A stretch of DNA of 45,511 nucleotides from Clostridiales bacterium (GTDB lineage: Bacteria; Bacillota; Clostridia; Clostridiales; Clostridiaceae), in contig JAAYOT010000237.1 of assembly GCA_012520205.1 (NCBI GenBank), forward strand, positions 1-45,511, written 5' to 3'. A program made the translations under genes and the position numbers. Below the pieces are notes generated by a model, which saw only the letters and a program-made list of their open reading frames with translations, did not search any database and was not told the DNA's origin. Shown here piece after piece: positions 8,707-37,534 of this stretch (the first letter of the stretch is position 1; each line of letters starts with the position of its first letter).

Positions 8707-11340
8707 ATGGAGAAAAAGAAGTATGTTTACCTTTTTAATGAAGGAAATGGTTCAATGAGAAACCTTCTTGGGGGTAAAGGGGCAAATTTATCAGAAATGA
8801 TATTACTAGGAATTCCAGTACCGCAAGGATTTACAGTAACAACTGAGGCTTGCAACAAGTATTACGAGGATGGTCAAGTAATAGCAGAAGAAATTATTGA
8901 AGAGATTCATGAAAAAATTTCTGAACTGGAAAAAATAACAGGTAAAGAACTTGGTAGTTTAACAAACCCGCTTTTACTTTCAGTTAGATCTGGAGCTAGA
9001 GTTTCAATGCCTGGAATGATGGATACTGTATTAAATCTAGGACTAAATGATGAATCAGTAGAAGCTATGGCTGATTTAACAAAGAATCCAAGATTTGCAT
9101 ATGATTCTTACAGAAGATTTATTCAAATGTTCTCAGATGTAGTTATGGGTATTGAAAAGAGATTATTTGACAATATACTAGATGAATTAAAAGAAAGTAG
9201 AGGGGTAGAATTAGATTCAGATTTAACAGCAGATGATTTAAAAGAATTAACTGTTAAATACAAGGAGCTTTATAAGAAAGAACGTGGAGAGGATTTCCCA
9301 CAAGATCCAAAACATCAATTAATCGAATCTATAACTGCAGTATTTAGATCTTGGAATAACCCAAGAGCAATAGTATATAGAAGATTAAATGATATACCTG
9401 GAGAATGGGGTACTGCTGTAAACGTTCAAGAAATGGTATTTGGTAATAAGGGTGAAACTTCAGGAACAGGAGTTGTATTCTCAAGAAACCCTGCAACTGG
9501 AGAAAATGAAATATATGGTGAATACTTAATGAATGCACAAGGTGAAGACGTTGTTGCAGGTATAAGAACACCACTTCCAATTGCAAAATTAGAAGAACAA
9601 AATCCTGAAATATATAAAGAGTTTGCTGATATAGTTCATAAATTAGAGCAACATTACAAAGACATGCAAGACATGGAAATAACTATAGAAGAAGGAAAAC
9701 TATACTTCTTACAAACAAGAAATGGTAAGAGAACAGCTCAAGCTGCCTTAAAAATTGCTGTTGACTTAGTTGAAGAAGGTATGTTAACTAAGGAAGAAGC
9801 AATATTAAAGGTTGAACCAATTCAATTAGATACATTATTACACCCTGCATTCCAAGAAGATGGACTAAAGAAAGCTACTCCTATAGCTAAAGGTTTAGCA
9901 GCTTCTCCAGGAGCAGCTTATGGAAAAATAGCATTTACAGCTGAAGCTGCTAAAGAAAGAAGTGAAAAGGGTGAAAAGGTAGTTTTAGTAAGACTTGAAA
10001 CATCACCAGAAGATATCGAAGGAATGGTTGCAGCTGAAGGTATCTTAACAGTAAGAGGGGGAATGACTTCTCACGCAGCGGTTGTTGCTAGAGGAATGGG
10101 AACTTGCTGTGTAGCTGGATGCGGTGATTTAAAAGTTAATGAAGATGCTAAAACTTTAGAAGTTAACGGAAAAGTTTATACAGAAAATGATTATATTTCA
10201 ATAGATGGATCAACTGGAAAGGTTTATGGAGAAAAGATAGCTACAGTTACTCCAGAAATTTCAGGACATTTTGCTAAATTTATGGGCTGGGCTGATGAAA
10301 TCAGAAAATTAAAAATAAGAACTAATGCTGATACTCCAAGAGATGCAAAACAAGCTGTGGAATTTGGAGCAGAAGGTATAGGTCTTTGTAGAACTGAGCA
10401 TATGTTCTTTGCTGAAGATAGAATTATGACAGTAAGAGAAATGATAGTTGCTAAGAACGAAGAGGATAGAAGAAAGGCTTTAGATAAGCTTCTACCAATA
10501 CAAAGAGAAGACTTTATCGGAATTTATGAAGCTTTAGAAGATAGACCAGCAACTATAAGATTCTTAGATCCACCTCTACACGAATTCTTACCTCATACAG
10601 ATGAAGAAATTCGTGAATTAGCAGAAAAGTTAGGCATAACCTTTGAAGAATTAAAGGCAACTGTTGCAGATCTTCATGAATTTAACCCAATGATGGGTCA
10701 TAGAGGTTGTAGACTTGCAGTATCTTACCCAGAAATTGCAGAAATGCAAACAAGAGCTGTAATAGAAGCTGCAATCGAAGTTAAAAAGAATAAAGGATAC
10801 AATATTGTTCCTGAAATAATGATTCCGCTTGTTGGAGAAATTAAGGAATTAAAATATGTTAAAGATGTTGTTGTAGAAACAGCTGAAAAAGTTATGGCTG
10901 AAAAAGGTGTTAAATTAGACTATATGGTAGGAACTATGATAGAAATACCAAGAGCAGCTTTAACTGCAGATGAAATAGCTAAAGAAGCTGAATTCTTCTC
11001 CTTTGGAACAAATGACTTAACTCAAATGACATTTGGATTCTCAAGAGATGATGCAGCTAAATTCTTAAATCACTACTATGACAAAAATATTTACGAGCAA
11101 GATCCATTTGCAAAAATTGACCAAACAGGTGTTGGACAATTAGTTAAGCTAGCAGTAGAAAGAGGAAGAGCTTCAAGACCTAATATTAAATTAGGAATAT
11201 GTGGAGAACACGGTGGAGATCCTTCATCAGTTGAATTCTTCCATAATGTAGGTCTTGACTATGTATCATGCTCACCATTTAGGGTTCCAATTGCAAGACT
11301 AGCTGCTGCACAAGCAGAAGTTAAAAATCCAAGAAAATAA
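8707..11340 (+). CDS. ppdK: Pyruvate, phosphate dikinase
   Basis: TVRGGMTSHAAVVARGMGTCCVAGCG and C-terminal FGTNDLTQM; RBS ggaggag then ATG at 8707. Confidence 0.97.
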   Translation: MEKKKYVYLFNEGNGSMRNLLGGKGANLSEMILLGIPVPQGFTVTTEACNKYYEDGQVIAEEIIEEIHEKISELEKITGKELGSLTNPLLLSVRSGARVSMPGMMDTVLNLGLNDESVEAMADLTKNPRFAYDSYRRFIQMFSDVVMGIEKRLFDNILDELKESRGVELDSDLTADDLKELTVKYKELYKKERGEDFPQDPKHQLIESITAVFRSWNNPRAIVYRRLNDIPGEWGTAVNVQEMVFGNKGETSGTGVVFSRNPATGENEIYGEYLMNAQGEDVVAGIRTPLPIAKLEEQNPEIYKEFADIVHKLEQHYKDMQDMEITIEEGKLYFLQTRNGKRTAQAALKIAVDLVEEGMLTKEEAILKVEPIQLDTLLHPAFQEDGLKKATPIAKGLAASPGAAYGKIAFTAEAAKERSEKGEKVVLVRLETSPEDIEGMVAAEGILTVRGGMTSHAAVVARGMGTCCVAGCGDLKVNEDAKTLEVNGKVYTENDYISIDGSTGKVYGEKIATVTPEISGHFAKFMGWADEIRKLKIRTNADTPRDAKQAVEFGAEGIGLCRTEHMFFAEDRIMTVREMIVAKNEEDRRKALDKLLPIQREDFIGIYEALEDRPATIRFLDPPLHEFLPHTDEEIRELAEKLGITFEELKATVADLHEFNPMMGHRGCRLAVSYPEIAEMQTRAVIEAAIEVKKNKGYNIVPEIMIPLVGEIKELKYVKDVVVETAEKVMAEKGVKLDYMVGTMIEIPRAALTADEIAKEAEFFSFGTNDLTQMTFGFSRDDAAKFLNHYYDKNIYEQDPFAKIDQTGVGQLVKLAVERGRASRPNIKLGICGEHGGDPSSVEFFHNVGLDYVSCSPFRVPIARLAAAQAEVKNPRK

Positions 11341-11379
11341 AAAAATAGATGTTACACATTTTGTGTAACATCTATTTTT
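11341..11379 (+). terminator. Terminator of ppdK
   Basis: Perfect AAATAGATGTTACACA/TGTGTAACATCTATTT hairpin plus T-tract. Confidence 0.88.
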
Positions 11380-11428
11380 TCTAGTGTTGAGTAAAATTTA
11401 TTTTCAGTTTACCGAAAATCGCTCTTAT

Positions 11429-11498
11429 CTCCACACTCCACCCTCCAAACTCCAAACTCCAAACTCAGTACTCCACCCTCCAAACCCAGTACTCCACA
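11429..11498. repeat. Ten in-register degenerate heptamers (CTCCAMA/CTCCACC/CTCAGTA type)
   Basis: ctccaca ctccacc ctccaaa ctccaaa ctccaaa ctcagta ctccacc ctccaaa cccagta ctccaca with no indel. Confidence 0.95.
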
Positions 11499-11502
11499 CT
11501 GA

Positions 11503-12564
11503 TTATATCCTAGTATTATAATACTTATTAAAAGTTTTAATAAGCTCATAAATAAAATCTAATTGATTTTCCGATCTTCTAAGTGCTTTCTCCAGAAGAA
11601 GAATAAAGGCATTTCTATTACATCTTTTAATATTTCTATAATAATCTCTTGAAAGTTTCCAAAGTTTTTGTGGAAAAGCAATATAGGATAGGATATATTT
11701 TAAATCATCTTCAGTTAAGCTGTTTTCTTCCATATAACTATCTAAAATATCTATAGTAAGGCTCATTTGCCAGTTGGTAGTTTCTCGCTTAAGCAACCTT
11801 CTTAAAAAATATGAAATATCCCTTGCGCAATAATCTAATTTACATTTATCAAAGTCAATAATTGATATACCATCTTCAGAAATTAATATATTTTTATTAA
11901 CAAAATCACCATGACATAAGGACTTAGAAAGATTTGAAGGATTAATTGAAGAAGAAATTTCAAAGGATATTTTAGCTAATTCAAGATTTTCGTCTATATT
12001 ATTAAGAAATAAATTTGAAAATCTATCTTTATGAAAATAAGCTTTATCTATACTATTTAAAAGTTGCTTGAAATGCTTTGAAATACTAACAGTAAGATCA
12101 TCGCAAGCTTCTCTTTGATAACTTCCTTCAATAGGATAAAAGTCTACAGAGGTTCTATGTAATTTACCTAGAGTTTTTGAAGAAATTAACATATGATCTA
12201 AGTTGTCAAAATCGCATTTAACTCCATCAAGCCAAGGAGTTAATATAAAAAGCATATCTTTATACTTTAGATACCTATTTCCATCTACAGTTGCAAGAAG
12301 TTTAGGAACATTTATACCATTTCTAAAGCACCATTCTAATGCAGAATATACATATAAAAGATTTTCTTCATCATAATAGACTTTCTTTAAGCAATAGGAC
12401 TTATCTTCTAAATCAACCCTATATACAGCCCTTTGTTTTTCTGTATCTTTGAATTTAATGTTAGTTAATGAGGCATTTACAAGGTCATATATAGGAAATA
12501 TATTCTCTTTTATTTCATCTAAAGGAAGTAAACCATTTTTTGTTTCAGTAAATATACTCTTCAT
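11503..12564 (-). CDS. CotS-family spore coat / aminoglycoside phosphotransferase-like protein
   Basis: Kinase-like LCHGDFVNKNILI and IIDFDKCKLDYCARD motifs. Confidence 0.87.
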   Translation of the reverse strand: MKSIFTETKNGLLPLDEIKENIFPIYDLVNASLTNIKFKDTEKQRAVYRVDLEDKSYCLKKVYYDEENLLYVYSALEWCFRNGINVPKLLATVDGNRYLKYKDMLFILTPWLDGVKCDFDNLDHMLISSKTLGKLHRTSVDFYPIEGSYQREACDDLTVSISKHFKQLLNSIDKAYFHKDRFSNLFLNNIDENLELAKISFEISSSINPSNLSKSLCHGDFVNKNILISEDGISIIDFDKCKLDYCARDISYFLRRLLKRETTNWQMSLTIDILDSYMEENSLTEDDLKYILSYIAFPQKLWKLSRDYYRNIKRCNRNAFILLLEKALRRSENQLDFIYELIKTFNKYYNTRI

Positions 12565-20177: not shown

Positions 20178-20264
20178 ATGTGCTAGGGGTGCTTCGGCTG
20201 AGAAATGATTTTATCATTAACCCTTTTACCTGATATAGATAATACTAGCGTAGGGAAGCCACAA
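20178..20264 (+). promoter_or_regulatory. TPP riboswitch
   Basis: GGGGTGC ... GCTGAGA ... ACCC ... ACCTGATATAGATAATACTAGCGTAGGGAAG thi-box consensus. Confidence 0.96.
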
Positions 20265-20294
20265 ATAAGTTAAACAAATACTTATTGGTTGTAT

Positions 20295-22340: not shown

Positions 22341-23111
22341 ATGATTATGAATAAAGTTAATTTACATAAAGTTTTTATGGGTTTATTGTCTTTGATGAGT
22401 TCTATAATAATAGTAATAAAATTAATGTATAGTTTACCTGATGTAGTACAAAAAAGTTTATTATATATAAATCTAATAATAGCTATTATTTTCTTGCTAG
22501 ATTATATTTTTAGGATAAGTAAAAGTAAAAATATATTTAGATTTATTTTTAGTAACAAGGTAGATCTTATTTCATTAATTCCAATAATATATATTGATAA
22601 ATTATCTGCTTTTCTTATTGTAGATTATAATATAAATTTAATATTTAATTTAGTCTATCTTTTTGTACTAATTATAAAATTTAAAAATAATATAAAGTAT
22701 TTAGTAAGAGAAAATAAGTTTAACTATTTATTGATTTTAACAACCATAATAATTGTTCTAGGAGCAGTAGTTATTTCTCTTTTAGAAGAAATGTCCTTTG
22801 TAGATGCTGTTTGGTGGAGCTTTGTTACCTTTACTACAGTGGGTTATGGGGACATTTTAATAGAGAGCCCTTTAGGTAAACTTGTAGCCATATTATTAAT
22901 GACATTAGGGGTAGGCTTTATAAGCGTTACAACTAGTACAATGGCTGTATATATAATTAATAAAGAAGGTTATAAAAAACAAAAGAAGGGATATAGAGAG
23001 CATACAATTGATTTAATAAAATACAACTTAGATAATATTGATGATCTAAGTGATGAAGATTTAGAAAATATCTATTACACTTTAAAAGGGTTAAAACGTA
23101 ATAAGAAATGA
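22341..23111 (+). CDS. Potassium channel family protein
   Basis: TM segments and selectivity filter TFTTVGYGDI. Confidence 0.92.
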   Translation: MIMNKVNLHKVFMGLLSLMSSIIIVIKLMYSLPDVVQKSLLYINLIIAIIFLLDYIFRISKSKNIFRFIFSNKVDLISLIPIIYIDKLSAFLIVDYNINLIFNLVYLFVLIIKFKNNIKYLVRENKFNYLLILTTIIIVLGAVVISLLEEMSFVDAVWWSFVTFTTVGYGDILIESPLGKLVAILLMTLGVGFISVTTSTMAVYIINKEGYKKQKKGYREHTIDLIKYNLDNIDDLSDEDLENIYYTLKGLKRNKK

Positions 23112-23139
23112 AAAATAGACTGCGTAGGCAGTCTATTTT
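23112..23139. terminator. Terminator of channel gene
   Basis: AAAATAGACTGC gtag GCAGTCTATTTT. Confidence 0.82.
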
Positions 23140-23191
23140 AATGTAGAATGAATGAAAATTTTTATAATTTAGTTCGCTAAATTATTTCCTA

Positions 23192-23226
23192 AATTGAAAA
23201 CTGAAAAGTGATAACTGAAAATTGAC
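23192..23226. repeat. Five in-register heptamers (AAYTGAA type) abutting treR stop
   Basis: aattgaa aactgaa aagtgat aactgaa aattgac. Confidence 0.85.
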
Positions 23227-23940
23227 TTAAAGTCTTTTTGCATATGTAGAAAAAATAAATTTATCGGGTCTATGTCTAGATTCTGTATATTCAAATAATG
23301 TTCCGTCATCTAAATTTACATAATTCTTAATAATTGCAACTAAATTATATTTTTTTAGTTCTAAGTATTTTTTATCACACTTAGATGCTGGCTCAACAGA
23401 AATTATTTTTTGTGCACCAGCAATTTTTAATGAAAGATTATTTTCTAAGTAATCATAAATGGAGTTTTGGGCAATATCTCTAGAAAGATCCTTAACTACA
23501 TCCTTTAAGAAATAGTTTATATCAAGTATAGTTTCTTCGCCATCAATATTTCTTGACCTAATAATGTGAAAAACTTTAGAGCTTAAAGGAAAACCAGTAA
23601 GTTTTGCAAGTTTTTCATCTACTACTATTTCTTCGAAAGTATGTATATTGGTAGAGTAAAAAACTTCATTAGTTTCGGAGGCTTCTTTAAAACTTTGAAG
23701 ACCTCCAACTAAAAATTTTAGTTGATGTTTTTCTATAATAAATACTCCTTTTCCATGAACACTAGTTACAAATCCTTCAAAGGAAAGTTTGTCTATAGCT
23801 CTTCTTACTGTATTTCTGCTGACACTAAATAGATTTGTTAGTTCTTTTTCAGAAGGAATTTTTTCGCCAGCTTTATATTCATTGGATATAATTTTATTTT
23901 TTAAGTAGTCGTATATTTCTGTGTATTTAATTTGTTTCAT
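23227..23940 (-). CDS. treR: Trehalose operon repressor TreR (GntR/HutC family)
   Basis: N-terminal GntR HTH, UTRA-like C-terminus; divergent from treB. Confidence 0.92.
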   Translation of the reverse strand: MKQIKYTEIYDYLKNKIISNEYKAGEKIPSEKELTNLFSVSRNTVRRAIDKLSFEGFVTSVHGKGVFIIEKHQLKFLVGGLQSFKEASETNEVFYSTNIHTFEEIVVDEKLAKLTGFPLSSKVFHIIRSRNIDGEETILDINYFLKDVVKDLSRDIAQNSIYDYLENNLSLKIAGAQKIISVEPASKCDKKYLELKKYNLVAIIKNYVNLDDGTLFEYTESRHRPDKFIFSTYAKRL

Positions 23941-27301: not shown

Positions 27302-27353
27302 GGACTAACAATTAAGGAATATTTTCAGCTAGGCTGAAAAGGGGAATATAAAT

Positions 27354-27383
27354 AAGGGGCTGTGGGAACAGCCTCCTTTTTTG
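27354..27383 (+). terminator. Terminator of tre operon
   Basis: AAGGGGCTGT ggga ACAGCCTCCTTTTTT. Confidence 0.8.
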
Positions 27384-27463
27384 AATTTATGGAAGGATAA
27401 ATTGAATTATTTTTGCTATTGAAAGTTTTATTAATATAGATTAAAATTAATTATACAAAATAT

Positions 27464-27549
27464 GCAGATGTGGCGGAATGGCAGACGCATCATCTTGAGG
27501 GGGTGACGAGGAAATCCTCGTGCGGGTTCAAGTCCCGCCATCTGCACCA
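27464..27549 (+). tRNA. tRNA-Leu (anticodon GAG)
   Basis: 86 nt including encoded CCA; acceptor GCAGATG/CATCTGC; anticodon loop TTGAGGG; long variable arm; GGTTCAAGTCC T-arm. Confidence 0.95.
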
Positions 27550-27554
27550 ATATA

Positions 27555-29327: not shown

Positions 29328-29963
29328 ATGAGGGAATTAGGAACATATAGAGGGATAGAAAATTATAAAATAGTTAATAAGAGAAGGAATATAAAAAATA
29401 AATTAACACTAATATTAATTTTGGTTTTTATAAGCTTTATTATAAGTATTAATATTTTTTCTAAAAAAAATAATAATGAAACATATGCTTCAAAAGAGGA
29501 ATTTATAGAAATGGTTAAGGAGGGAGCCTTAGCAAATTATAAAAAGTATGGAATCCTGCCTTCCATAACAATAGCACAAGCAGTAGTAGAATCTGACTTT
29601 GGAAATTCTACTTTGGCAAAGGAATATCATAATTTATTTGGAATAAAGGCTGATGAAAGCTATAAGGGAGAAATAGCTACCTTTGAAACTATGGAAAATT
29701 ATGAAGATACAATTATTGCAAATTTTAGAGCATATGATAATTATAAGGATTCAATTAAAGATCACGGTAAGTTTTTATATGAGAATTCAAGGTATTCAGA
29801 AAATGGTTTATTTGATAGCAAAGATTATATAGGACAGGCAGAAGCCTTAGAAAGAGCAGGATATGCTACTGTGCAAGATGGAAATGGAGAGTTAATATAT
29901 GCAGATATATTAATAGAAGTAATTGAAGAATACAAACTTTATGAAATAGACAAGGAGGTGTAA
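29328..29963 (+). CDS. Membrane-anchored glucosaminidase (mannosyl-glycoprotein endo-beta-N-acetylglucosaminidase family)
   Basis: N-terminal TM; SITIAQAVVESDFGNSTLAKEYHNLFGIKAD...YSENGLF. Confidence 0.9.
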   Translation: MRELGTYRGIENYKIVNKRRNIKNKLTLILILVFISFIISINIFSKKNNNETYASKEEFIEMVKEGALANYKKYGILPSITIAQAVVESDFGNSTLAKEYHNLFGIKADESYKGEIATFETMENYEDTIIANFRAYDNYKDSIKDHGKFLYENSRYSENGLFDSKDYIGQAEALERAGYATVQDGNGELIYADILIEVIEEYKLYEIDKEV

Positions 29964-30004
29964 TATTTTGCTTACAAAATATTACGATTTAAAATTCAAA
30001 ATGC

Positions 30005-30045
30005 ACAATGAAGGATGTTTTGCCTAGCAAAACATCCTTCATTGT
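30005..30045. terminator. 19-bp perfect inverted repeat, probable bidirectional terminator
   Basis: ACAATGAAGGATGTTTTGC cta GCAAAACATCCTTCATTGT. Confidence 0.75.
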
Positions 30046-30052
30046 ACATTAG

Positions 30053-30071
30053 AAAAGTGCTAGGCACTTTT
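30053..30071. terminator. Terminator hairpin upstream of acyP 3' end
   Basis: AAAAGTGC tag GCACTTTT plus T-tract. Confidence 0.75.
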
Positions 30072-30344
30072 TTAGTATTTGGTTGAAAACCTCTTTTCTT
30101 TATCTTTAACATCGATTTCCTTTATGTCTAAATTATCTATACGTATAAATCTATTTCCTTTATTAATAATTTCAATAAATTTATTAACTTTATTTATATC
30201 ACCTTGAACTTCCATTTCTACATCGCCTTTATATAAGTTTCTTATCCAACCTGTTAAGCCTAAAGATGTTGCATTTGTCTGGCAAAAAAATCTAAAACCT
30301 ACACCTTGAACTCTTCCTTGAGCTAAAATATAAAATCTTACCAT
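30072..30344 (-). CDS. acyP: Acylphosphatase
   Basis: AQGRVQGVGFRFF...GLTGWIRNLYKGDVEMEVQG. Confidence 0.95.
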   Translation of the reverse strand: MVRFYILAQGRVQGVGFRFFCQTNATSLGLTGWIRNLYKGDVEMEVQGDINKVNKFIEIINKGNRFIRIDNLDIKEIDVKDKEKRFSTKY

Positions 30345-30441
30345 AAAATACCTCCATAACTCTTTATAAAAAAATTATATCATATATAATAATATTGGGT
30401 GATAAAATAATATACAAATTTTAATAAATGGGAGGAGAATT

Positions 30442-30846
30442 ATGGAGAGATCATTAGTACTAATTAAACCAGATGCGGTGGAAAGAAACTTAGTAGGGAA
30501 AATAATCAGTATGTATGAGGAAAAGGGATTAAAGATTGCTGGATTAAAGATGGAAACTATAAGTAGAGACTTTGCAGCTGAACATTATAAAGAACATATA
30601 GGAAAAGTTTTTTATGACTCCTTAATAGATTTCATTACAAAAGGACCCTTATGCGCTATGGTTTTAGAGGGAGAAAATGCAATAGAAAAAATCAGAAAAA
30701 TTAATGGTAGTACCGATCCTGCAAAAGCAGAAGAAGGTACAATAAGAAGATTATTTGCTACAAGTACTAGAGAAAATTGTGTACATGCATCAGATAGTGC
30801 AGAAAGTGCTAAGAGAGAAATAGAACTATGGTTCAAAGACAATTAG
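30442..30846 (+). CDS. ndk: Nucleoside-diphosphate kinase
   Basis: MERSLVLIKPDAVERNLVGKII; NCVHASDSAESAKREI. Confidence 0.97.
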   Translation: MERSLVLIKPDAVERNLVGKIISMYEEKGLKIAGLKMETISRDFAAEHYKEHIGKVFYDSLIDFITKGPLCAMVLEGENAIEKIRKINGSTDPAKAEEGTIRRLFATSTRENCVHASDSAESAKREIELWFKDN

Positions 30847-30874
30847 CAGTTTTCGGTTTTCAATTATCAATTAA
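30847..30874. repeat. Four in-register heptamers starting directly after ndk stop
   Basis: cagtttt cggtttt caattat caattaa. Confidence 0.75.
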
Positions 30875-30946
30875 GATAGATTTTCAGATTGCTGAAAATC
30901 TTAAAATATAAAAAAGAATTAAAATTTTATTTAAATTATAAAGAAG

Positions 30947-30988
30947 AGGGAACTTTATTGTAACTGAGTAGTTAATATAAAGTTCCCT
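30947..30988. terminator. Bidirectional terminator between ndk and potD
   Basis: AGGGAACTTTAT ... ATAAAGTTCCCT. Confidence 0.78.
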
Positions 30989-31003
30989 TTGTTATTTAAG
31001 AAA

Positions 31004-32074
31004 TTATTGCATTTTTACATTTAACCATGCATCATCGTAAAGTTTAAGATTTTCACCTAAGTCTCTAAAAATTTCGCAATTCTTAAGAACTTCTTCTGGT
31101 GGATATACTGTTTCGTCTTTTTGAGTTTCTTCATCTAAAAGTTCGTAAGCAGATGTATTTGGAGTAGCATATCCTATATATTCAACATTTTGTTTTGCAT
31201 TTTCAGGATCGCTTAGGAAGTTGATAAATTCTTCAGCTTCATCCTTGTTTGCAGCACCTTTAGGAATAACCATAGCATCAAACCAAATGTTAGAACCTTC
31301 TTTAGGAACTACATATTTTAAGTTCATGTCAGGTGCTTCTTCTTGAATATATATTGCATCCCCTGAATAAACAGTTGCAAAGTTAGCTTCGCCATTAACT
31401 ATCTTTTCTTTTACTTCATCCATAACATAGGCTTGAACTAAAGGTTTTTGTTTTATTAATTCATTTGCAGCTACTTCTATTTCTTCTACATTAGTAGAGT
31501 TAATAGAATATCCTTTTCTTGCTAATGAAATTGCAAGGGTATCTCTTATTGAGTCAAACATTAAGATATCTCCAGAGTATTTTTCATTCCAAAGATTATC
31601 CCAGCTATCAATATTATCTTTAATGTTATCAGCGTTATATATTATTCCAATAGTTCCCCACATATAAGGTACGGAATATTCATTGTTTGGATCATAAATT
31701 AAATTTTTATATTGAGCGCCAATGTGTTCATAGTTAGGAATATTATTGAAGTCTAATTTTTCCAACATATCTTCCTTAATCATTTTTTCTATCATATAAT
31801 CAGATGGAAATAATATGTCATAGGCACCTGAATTACTCTTTACTTTTTGATACATGATTTCATTAGTTTCATAAGTATCATAAACAACTTTGATTCCAGT
31901 TTCTTCTTCAAATTTGTCTAAAAGATCCTCATCAATATAATCTCCATAATTAAATACATTTAAAACTCTTTCTTCTTTATTGCTTCCATTACCTTTAGAT
32001 GAACAAGCAGCTAAAGTTGAGGATAGTAATAATAATGATGTGCAAAGTGCAAGGATTTTTTTAATTTTTTTCAA
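31004..32074 (-). CDS. potD: Spermidine/putrescine ABC transporter substrate-binding lipoprotein
   Basis: Lipobox LLSSTLAACSS; periplasmic-binding fold sequence; TTG start at 32074 after aagaggtgat. Confidence 0.92.
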   Translation of the reverse strand: MKKIKKILALCTSLLLLSSTLAACSSKGNGSNKEERVLNVFNYGDYIDEDLLDKFEEETGIKVVYDTYETNEIMYQKVKSNSGAYDILFPSDYMIEKMIKEDMLEKLDFNNIPNYEHIGAQYKNLIYDPNNEYSVPYMWGTIGIIYNADNIKDNIDSWDNLWNEKYSGDILMFDSIRDTLAISLARKGYSINSTNVEEIEVAANELIKQKPLVQAYVMDEVKEKIVNGEANFATVYSGDAIYIQEEAPDMNLKYVVPKEGSNIWFDAMVIPKGAANKDEAEEFINFLSDPENAKQNVEYIGYATPNTSAYELLDEETQKDETVYPPEEVLKNCEIFRDLGENLKLYDDAWLNVKMQ

Positions 32075-35790: not shown

Positions 35791-36828
35791 ATGGTTAAAA
35801 GGCATAACTTATACATAAGGCGGGGAAATAAAGTATACATACGAAATCCTCAATTAAAGGAGTTATCTTTTGTAGAAAAATTATGGGGAAATGAAGAAAG
35901 CATGAAGGATATTGGGGGAACTTACCTTTTTCCTAAGGAAAAGTGGGAAATGTTTTATAGGAAAATGGTTTATCCAACGGATGGAAAGAACTTCTTTTGC
36001 CTTATTTATGATTTGCAAGATAATCCTGTAGGAGAGGTTAGTTTTCATGGCTATAATTCTATAACTAAAGTAGCAAGAATAAATGTAAAGGTTCATTATA
36101 AATATAGAGGCCTTGGATATGGAAGTGAGGCCTTAAAGCTGCTCCTAGAATATTATTTTTGGAATTTTGGGGGAGAGGCAATTATTGATTCAGTAGATAC
36201 CAAGGAAGCTAAAAGACTATTTGAGAAATTGGGCTTCGAAGTTATAAATAAATTTAAGGATCAGGTAACTTATAAGTTAGAAAAAAGTAGATTTTCTGCT
36301 TACGATAAAAAGGATACTAAAGATGTTTACATATTATGCTATGATAATATGAATATTTTAGACTACTCAATAGCAGTAAAAATATTTAATACTGCAAACA
36401 CATTATTGAAAAGTAATTATTTTAATATTTCTTTGGTTTCAGATAAGAAAGAAGTAGTAACGGAAGGTAAAATACATTTCTATGTTGAACAAAGTTCTAA
36501 TGAAGTAATTAATGAAAAGAGTATTTTAATAATTCCGGGAAGTGATAGCAAAGAATCAAACTTGGACAAGTCTTATCTTATTAATTACATAAAAAAAGAA
36601 TACTTGAATAGCGATTATATTGTTTTGCCATCAAAGGAATTGAATTTCTTAAAGGAGTTTTTAGGGGGAGAAGTTTTAGAAGGGGATAATAATTTACTGG
36701 ATTATGGTAAAGTTATTATAGCTAGAGATTATAAAGAAAATATAAATGCCTGTATAAATATTATAAGAAATATTTTAGGTGAAGAAATTGCCTCAAGTAT
36801 TAAATCGCAGTTCATGGGAAATAGTTAA
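35791..36828 (+). CDS. GNAT acetyltransferase fused to C-terminal DJ-1/PfpI-like domain
   Basis: GNAT VKVHYKYRGLGYGSEALKLLLEYYF...AKRLFEKLGFEV; C-terminal VYILCYDNMNILDYSIAVKIFNTAN...LIIPGS. Confidence 0.78.
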   Translation: MVKRHNLYIRRGNKVYIRNPQLKELSFVEKLWGNEESMKDIGGTYLFPKEKWEMFYRKMVYPTDGKNFFCLIYDLQDNPVGEVSFHGYNSITKVARINVKVHYKYRGLGYGSEALKLLLEYYFWNFGGEAIIDSVDTKEAKRLFEKLGFEVINKFKDQVTYKLEKSRFSAYDKKDTKDVYILCYDNMNILDYSIAVKIFNTANTLLKSNYFNISLVSDKKEVVTEGKIHFYVEQSSNEVINEKSILIIPGSDSKESNLDKSYLINYIKKEYLNSDYIVLPSKELNFLKEFLGGEVLEGDNNLLDYGKVIIARDYKENINACINIIRNILGEEIASSIKSQFMGNS

Positions 36829-36841
36829 GAGAGGCTTTTTT

Positions 36842-36897
36842 CAGTTCACAGTTCACAAGGCACGGTTCACAGTTGTGAGCTGTGCCTTGTGGGCTGT
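36842..36897. repeat. Eight in-register heptamers forming a long inverted repeat
   Basis: cagttca cagttca caaggca cggttca cagttgt gagctgt gccttgt gggctgt; arms 36848-36871 and 36874-36897 pair with G-U wobbles. Confidence 0.88.
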
Positions 36898-36904
36898 TAA
36901 AGTT

Positions 36905-37534
36905 TTATTTCTTCAAAAGGTTTGAAAAGTATCCAGGTCTTATTAGGCCTTTTTTTATACCTTGAATTACTAACAAATATGTAGCAGTGGTATCGAATCT
37001 TGCATCATGATAATTTCCACTTCCCTGGAAAAGATCATCAGCTTTTTTGATTATTTGATCTTCACTTATTTTTAGGAAATCTACAACTTCTGATAGTTTT
37101 GGATTTTTAATATTGCCGGAAGGGCTAGGGATTTTGCATATATTTTTGTAATAAGCCATTGTACAAAAAGTATTTTTTGGCTCCCACTTTTCTTCAATCA
37201 TTCCAGCGCCCCATAGCTGTTGTATTTCATGTTTTAAAAATTTTATATCAAATTGAACATTATGTCCAATTACAAAATCTGTTTCATAAAAATCAGGCAT
37301 AAATTCTTGTATAAAATCTATAAATTCGCGCCCATCAGATAATTCATATAATTTTTCAAGAGAAAAACCATGTACTGCTTCAGCACCTTCATCCATATTA
37401 TCTACAGTGAAAAAAAAGTTTTTTCCTATTGTTGTTTGTGGTTTAGAAGAAGCATCTACAAGTATATAGCTTAACTGGCATATGCTACCTGGTTTTATGC
37501 TAGTTGTTTCTGTATCAAAAAATAGTAATTTCAT
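36905..37534 (-). CDS. 3'-5' exonuclease (DnaQ-like DEDDh)
   Basis: FFDTETTSI, VIGHNVQFDIKFLKHE, HDARFDTTAT. Confidence 0.88.
   Translation of the reverse strand: MKLLFFDTETTSIKPGSICQLSYILVDASSKPQTTIGKNFFFTVDNMDEGAEAVHGFSLEKLYELSDGREFIDFIQEFMPDFYETDFVIGHNVQFDIKFLKHEIQQLWGAGMIEEKWEPKNTFCTMAYYKNICKIPSPSGNIKNPKLSEVVDFLKISEDQIIKKADDLFQGSGNYHDARFDTTATYLLVIQGIKKGLIRPGYFSNLLKK

Follow-up and report, generated by a model that had tools for sequence, protein, structure and literature searches.

A heptamer hairpin between convergent genes

The window analyzed here is a stretch of 45,511 nucleotides from the draft genome of a Clostridiales bacterium (contig JAAYOT010000237.1 of assembly GCA_012520205.1), in which a putative GNAT-type acetyltransferase gene and a putative exonuclease gene converge on a gap filled by heptamers (Table 1). 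The 56 bases at 36842-36897 comprise eight heptamers, of which the first five share one direction and the last three are inverted (CAGTTCA CAGTTCA CAAGGCA CGGTTCA CAGTTGT GAGCTGT GCCTTGT GGGCTGT). An initial inspection of the letters alone, referred to below as the sequence-only reading, described this array as a hairpin whose arms pair fully when G-U wobbles are allowed, and this description holds: an uninterrupted stem of 24 pairs joins 36848-36871 to 36874-36897, with GT between them, and comprises 20 Watson-Crick and four G-U pairs.

The hairpin is well above chance. It is the longest plus-strand stem of the whole window for loops of 2-12 nucleotides, a search in which the longest stem across 20 windows simulated with a Markov-1 model had 21 pairs. 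The plus-strand RNA is predicted to fold at -40.6 kcal/mol (z -9.4), which none of 200 shuffles equaled, compared to only -27.4 kcal/mol for the minus strand. Tandem Repeats Finder calls an array over the first 4.7 units only (score 38), since the heptamers to the right run in reverse complement. A search of the junction against Rfam returned nothing at the gathering threshold, the sub-threshold matches being mainly microRNA hairpins. The heptamer phase is indeed preserved across the symmetry axis, as the sequence-only reading had also stressed, but this register lock is weak evidence, because pairing arms of one heptamer family must be in register and because the repeat family described below has an invariant inner boundary, CAGTTG.

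Table 1. Coordinates of the heptamer hairpin, its neighboring genes and other repeat features in the window
Feature	Position	Strand	Basis
GNAT-type acetyltransferase gene (putative), upstream convergent neighbor	35791-36828	+	Name from the sequence-only reading
Left arm, five heptamers CAGTTCA CAGTTCA CAAGGCA CGGTTCA CAGTTGT	36842-36876	+	Sequence; orthologous to G018 left arm AAGTGAACAGTTCACAAGGCACGGTACACAGTTGTGG
Stem of 24 bp (20 Watson-Crick, 4 G-U), GT between arms, -40.6 kcal/mol	36848-36897	+	Pairing search, RNA fold
Right arm, inverted heptamers; reverse complement ACTTTAA CAGCCCA CAAGGCA CAGCTCA CA	36874-36903	-	Sequence; G018 right-arm comparison
Exonuclease gene (putative), downstream convergent neighbor	36905-37534	-	Name from the sequence-only reading
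Terminator-like stem plus seven T, inside the exonuclease gene 3' end; candidate terminator of the GNAT transcript	36935-36950	+	Consensus match only
Half element: hairpin ATAATTTAG-TTC-GCTAAATTAT, TTCC, then inverted heptamers; G018 without it at the same junction	23164-23224	-	
Half element: CAGTTTT CGGTTTT CAATTAT CAATTAA, then hairpin GATTTTCAG-ATTG-CTGAAAATC, located after the stop codon and before the native terminator; lacking in G018 and MSJ-32	30847-30900	+	
Reduced member: outer hairpins and short arms (AAATTCA AAATGCA CAATGAA GGATG) around TTTTGC-CTA-GCAAAA	29960-30073		
Half element with a different heptamer: ten CTCCAAA-type heptamers following the hairpin ATTTTCAG..CGAAAAT	11400-11500		
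Solitary outer palindrome AGATTGC-GAA-GCAATCT, alone past a stop codon	22238-22259		

A dispersed repeat family

The junction array is one of many in its genome. When the 2.28-Mb draft was searched with the CAGTTCA array CAGTTCACAGTTCACAGTT, allowing at most three mismatches, 122 matches were obtained, compared to two for the reversed query used as a control. Most of 40 array loci taken from this genome consist of two facing arrays that enclose smaller hairpins, examples of which are GAAACTAC-TGC-GTAGTTTC and AATTCAGC-nn-GCTGAATT, with GAGGA/TTCC joining hairpins to arrays. Arms typically have five heptamers with recurring position-specific variants, among them CAAGGCA, and end at a conserved inner boundary, CAGTT(G/A)AGGA, that the hairpins adjoin. 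A hairpin of at least six Watson-Crick pairs lies within 50 nucleotides inward of the arm in 141 of 253 cases, compared to 15.6% in shuffles. These hairpins have 117 different stem/loop cores, so the palindromic form persists as the sequence changes.

The order of a full element is an outer palindrome, an arm of about five heptamers, an inner hairpin, a spacer, a second inner hairpin, the inverted arm and another outer palindrome, for a total length of about 100-210 bp; the arm heptamer is CAGTTCA or a species variant of it. Arms usually start within about 20 nucleotides of a stop or start codon, and arrays face starts and stops alike, with either gene orientation. In four relatives, the outer array edges have median distances of 18-23.5 nucleotides to the gene edge and the inner edges of 100-119 nucleotides, the corresponding medians in the window's own genome being 87.5 and 134.5 nucleotides.

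The relative designated G018, whose genome is complete, carries a version of the element that looks recently mobile, judging from its copies. A 213-base query found seven full copies at unrelated loci, mostly 93-99% identical and 94-99% identical to the query itself, plus one truncated copy. The copies are 209 bp long, and their alignments end sharply at the outer palindrome AAAGATTGC-GAA-GCAATCTTT. As RNA, the whole element is predicted to form one nested hairpin (-78.7 kcal/mol). The element ends are AT-rich, and inspection by eye found no consistent target duplication. In three genomes, sequence matches to the 209-bp element comprised the non-coding element only. Short, non-coding and bounded by terminal palindromes, with near-identical copies dispersed over the genome, this subfamily shares these properties with MITEs.

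The junction in related genomes

The window shows synteny to both G018 and Caproiciproducens sp. MSJ-32 over the part that each covers, and the GNAT/exonuclease junction has a different state in each of the three genomes. A full element is present in G018, none is present in MSJ-32, and the window genome has two arms only, its copy being about 80 bp shorter in the middle than the full state. The left arm is almost identical in the window and in G018, whereas the right arm differs. Five positions separate the window's left arm from the right arm of G018; the window's right arm sides with its left arm at four of these and with the G018 right arm at one. At this site, only about 17 of the 24 arm pairs are present in the G018 element.

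The window copy would thus descend from a full element at this junction, about 80 bp of whose middle was lost, such that the arms came to lie side by side and to form the near-perfect 24-bp hairpin, after which fold-back (template-switch) synthesis probably rewrote part of one arm from the other. The simplest history is that about 80 bases were lost and that the right arm was then partly overwritten with a copy of the left, although deletion and conversion could have occurred in either order, and G018 might alternatively be the genome that diverged. Both window arms could also carry CAAGGCA by chance, because this variant recurs in the family. Of the inversion-type templating proposed in the sequence-only reading, inversion is apt in that the family consists of inverted arms and that one element lies in opposite orientations at a neighboring junction in two relatives, and templated copying is made plausible, not proven, by the four of five diagnostic bases, a comparison that spans five positions in two genomes. 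The copy might now serve as a 3'-end hairpin of the GNAT mRNA or as an insulator between the convergent genes.

Further family members in the window

The half elements at the junctions 23111-23227 and 30846-31004 are missing from relatives, and the native terminator is retained. At 29960-30073 the element junction is filled in all three relatives, with different contents, and at the junction 29963-30442 the elements of G018 and MSJ-32 occupy the same site and belong to one subfamily but lie in opposite orientation (L338-L340, L341-L343). A simple inversion is not required to explain this arrangement, since the MSJ-32 copy is 97.4% identical to another G018 copy and 94.4% identical to its positional counterpart in G018; re-insertion or conversion is therefore as likely as inversion.

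A second heptamer family, CTCCAAA/CTCCACA, occurs at 16 places in the window's own genome, one of them being 11429-11500. At 11340-11503, G018 shares the hairpin but has approximately two degenerate heptamers in place of the ten in the window, and on this comparison the CTCCAAA-type array at 11429-11500 reads as having grown in place. At one locus (L052), convergent CTCCAAA arrays surround ATTTTCAGC-ATA-GCTGAAAAT, a hairpin that other loci combine with CAGTTCA arms, and at two others (L042, L046) a CTCCAAA-type array is fused to a CAGTTTT array. Judging from these few loci, heptamer unit and hairpin module appear to vary independently of each other. Two further features were seen by eye: a TPP-riboswitch-like sequence at 20180-20240 (GGGGTGC..GGCTGAGA..ACCCTTT..ACCTGAT), upstream of the gene at 20289, and an apparent tRNA gene beside a possible half element in the intergenic region 27302-27554.

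Occurrence among relatives

In the genus Clostridium, to which the window is assigned from its named relatives, CAGTTCA-type arrays were found in 14 of 69 sampled species (E ≤ 0.001), and three genomes (G053, G057 and G070) have the same architecture with CAGTTTA/CAGTTAA arms. Among 399 genomes of the phylum, the exact test pattern matched in 11, several of which also matched the reversed control and thus have related but different arrays. Additional heptamer arrays in the genus include twenty CAATTAT-type heptamers at L227 2558-2697 and about twenty CAGTTTT/CAATTTA units at L083 798-937. Another repeat, TTTATGCCC..GGGTATCCTGTGGACAGT, breaks heptamer arms in G053, G057 and G070 (L295, L297, L310). 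In the window's draft genome, genes of contig C165 have 99-100% protein identity to G018 (L084 compared with L239/L264), compared to about 80-97% for most other shared genes, possibly reflecting contamination or recent transfer.

The RAYT transposase Y1_Tnp (PF01797) was considered as a mobilizer and rejected, since its occurrence does not track the arrays: it is absent from the array-bearing genomes G018, G008 and G020 and present in many array-free genomes. The search found no transposase partner for the family, and Y1_Tnp is lacking in the very genome with the freshest copies.

Competing explanations

The most probable explanation, held with reasonable confidence, is that the window hairpin belongs, as a reduced copy, to a Clostridium repeat family that is non-coding, dispersed and probably mobile in a non-autonomous, MITE/REPIN-like way, the two arms having been left by loss of the middle of the element. 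It has to be weighed against the proposal, made in the sequence-only reading from apparent compensatory and wobble changes, that a conserved RNA hairpin acting as a terminator or mRNA 3'-end stabilizer is selected for pairing in the plus-strand GNAT transcript. The hairpin does begin 20 nucleotides past the GNAT stop codon, its plus-strand fold is 13 kcal/mol better than that of the minus strand, and all four of its non-Watson-Crick pairs are G-U on the plus strand. Only three of these four wobbles are derived relative to G018, however, which is too few for a test of strand bias. Nor does a U-tract follow the stem, the combination of GC-rich stem and U-tract that marks an intrinsic terminator being absent here, and the sole terminator-like site within 36600-37200, a consensus match and the better candidate, lies outside the heptamer hairpin (Table 1). 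Selection for pairing is also difficult to reconcile with an unconserved junction at which G018 forms so few arm pairs and MSJ-32 lacks the element, and with the absence of an Rfam family at threshold. A cross-element control concerns pairing itself. Among 650 combinations of arms drawn from different elements of the clade, 4.8% pair 24/24 when G-U is allowed, and arms of the same element do so in one of 26 real pairs, which is the window copy. Two arms of one family can thus give such pairing without selection on this RNA, and perfect pairing was rejected as a sign of it. Family-wide arm covariation likewise did not exceed permutation in the window's genome (p = 0.094) or overall (p = 0.18), although this is a weak test because the set includes spurious low-complexity pairs. 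The wobble changes therefore lend no support to selection on RNA structure, which is improbable as the origin of this hairpin.

Two other accounts are more improbable still. The array might be a plain slippage microsatellite whose inverted half arose by coincidence or by simple inversion of part of the array. Arrays of this kind can expand in place, as the window's CTCCACA units do relative to G018, and the heptamer excess of bacteria has been attributed to slippage (PMC4692102). Slippage can account for array length, but not for arms that are stereotyped at about five units, mostly convergent, and end at a conserved boundary with hairpins; the entire 209-bp copies at unrelated loci largely refute it as the full explanation. 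An equally small chance is assigned to the array being a set of binding sites for a protein with 7-bp periodicity, such as the post-transcriptional regulator proposed for the TAACTGA repeats of Beggiatoaceae. The CAGTTAW/CAGTTCA class nearly equals TCAGTTA (PMC4679880), and arms are positioned immediately ahead of start codons or behind stop codons. The indifference of the copies to starts, stops and gene orientation argues against this account, as does a heptamer that differs between species and within a genome, which a specific protein would not readily tolerate.

Implications

Many bacteria have an excess of heptamer arrays, for which the literature found gives no tested cause. The heptamer array described here forms an arm of an element that is built of nested palindromes, has recent copies and is present, reduced or absent at orthologous junctions of three close relatives, such that the birth, spread, growth and decay of an array become testable. 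The window copy also teaches that a hairpin as striking and in phase as this one can be what is left of a repeat family rather than a selected RNA. A broader and rather unlikely proposition is that these repeats represent a class of small mobile DNA with interchangeable heptamer arms, which grow in place by slippage and are kept alike by fold-back copying. If true and general, this would offer a mechanistic explanation of why, as has long been noted, 7-bp tandem repeats are in excess in the intergenic DNA of bacteria.

Comparison with known repeats

REPINs and BIMEs are inverted pairs of palindromic repeats, mobilized by RAYTs, that are dispersed, intergenic, hairpin-forming and non-autonomous. 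The Clostridium family likewise comprises dispersed, multi-copy inverted palindromic units that are intergenic, form hairpins, and appear to be mobile and non-autonomous. It differs in having no identified REP motif and no RAYT-type Y1_Tnp gene found in G018, and REPINs have no counterpart to the heptamer arms. A search of openly licensed papers with the array sequence gave nothing relevant and no literature match for the family was found; a MITE-like repeat whose arms are heptamer arrays thus appears to be undescribed. Small modular intergenic stem-loop repeats are also known in Firmicutes from the pneumococcal BOX/RUP elements and the stem-loop families of Clostridium tetani and Clostridium perfringens (PMC2267715); one of these Clostridium families, Clot-3, holds CRISPR repeats. 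Template switching, a process and not a repeat family, is an established means by which inverted-repeat arms become alike, and it can also invert the spacer (PMC8604942, PMC7202029, PMC8794818); such quasipalindrome mutation fits the arm change proposed for the window copy at four of five positions.

Two heptamer systems offer closer parallels in the arms themselves. A study of Xanthomonas campestris and Xanthomonas axonopodis describes intergenic GGGAATC arrays, commonly of four units, in 70-75 convergent pairs per genome with one array per strand, which usually lie between the same genes in related species, near the preceding gene, and vary in length (PMC4692102). The Clostridium arrays are likewise intergenic and paired convergently, with about four heptamers or more. 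The Xanthomonas heptamer is G-rich and quadruplex-forming and belongs to an unrelated phylum, whereas the CAGTTCA unit of the window copy, as read from its letters, has no G-tracts and so fits neither the GGGANTN pattern nor a G-quadruplex; inner hairpins, outer palindromes and recent full-length copies do not feature in the sections of that study consulted. The TAACTGA repeats of Beggiatoaceae, Cyanobacteria and Bacteroidetes are intergenic, near start codons and patchy over lineages, and their reverse complement TCAGTTA approximates CAGTTAA, CAGTTTA and CAGTTCA (PMC4679880). They are direct repeats with one inverted pair in the main genome studied, and the sections consulted report neither flanking hairpins nor occurrence in Firmicutes. 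The closest known kinds are REPIN/MITE-like repeats (PMC3116915), the convergent GGGAATC pairs of Xanthomonas (PMC4692102) and the TAACTGA repeats (PMC4679880).
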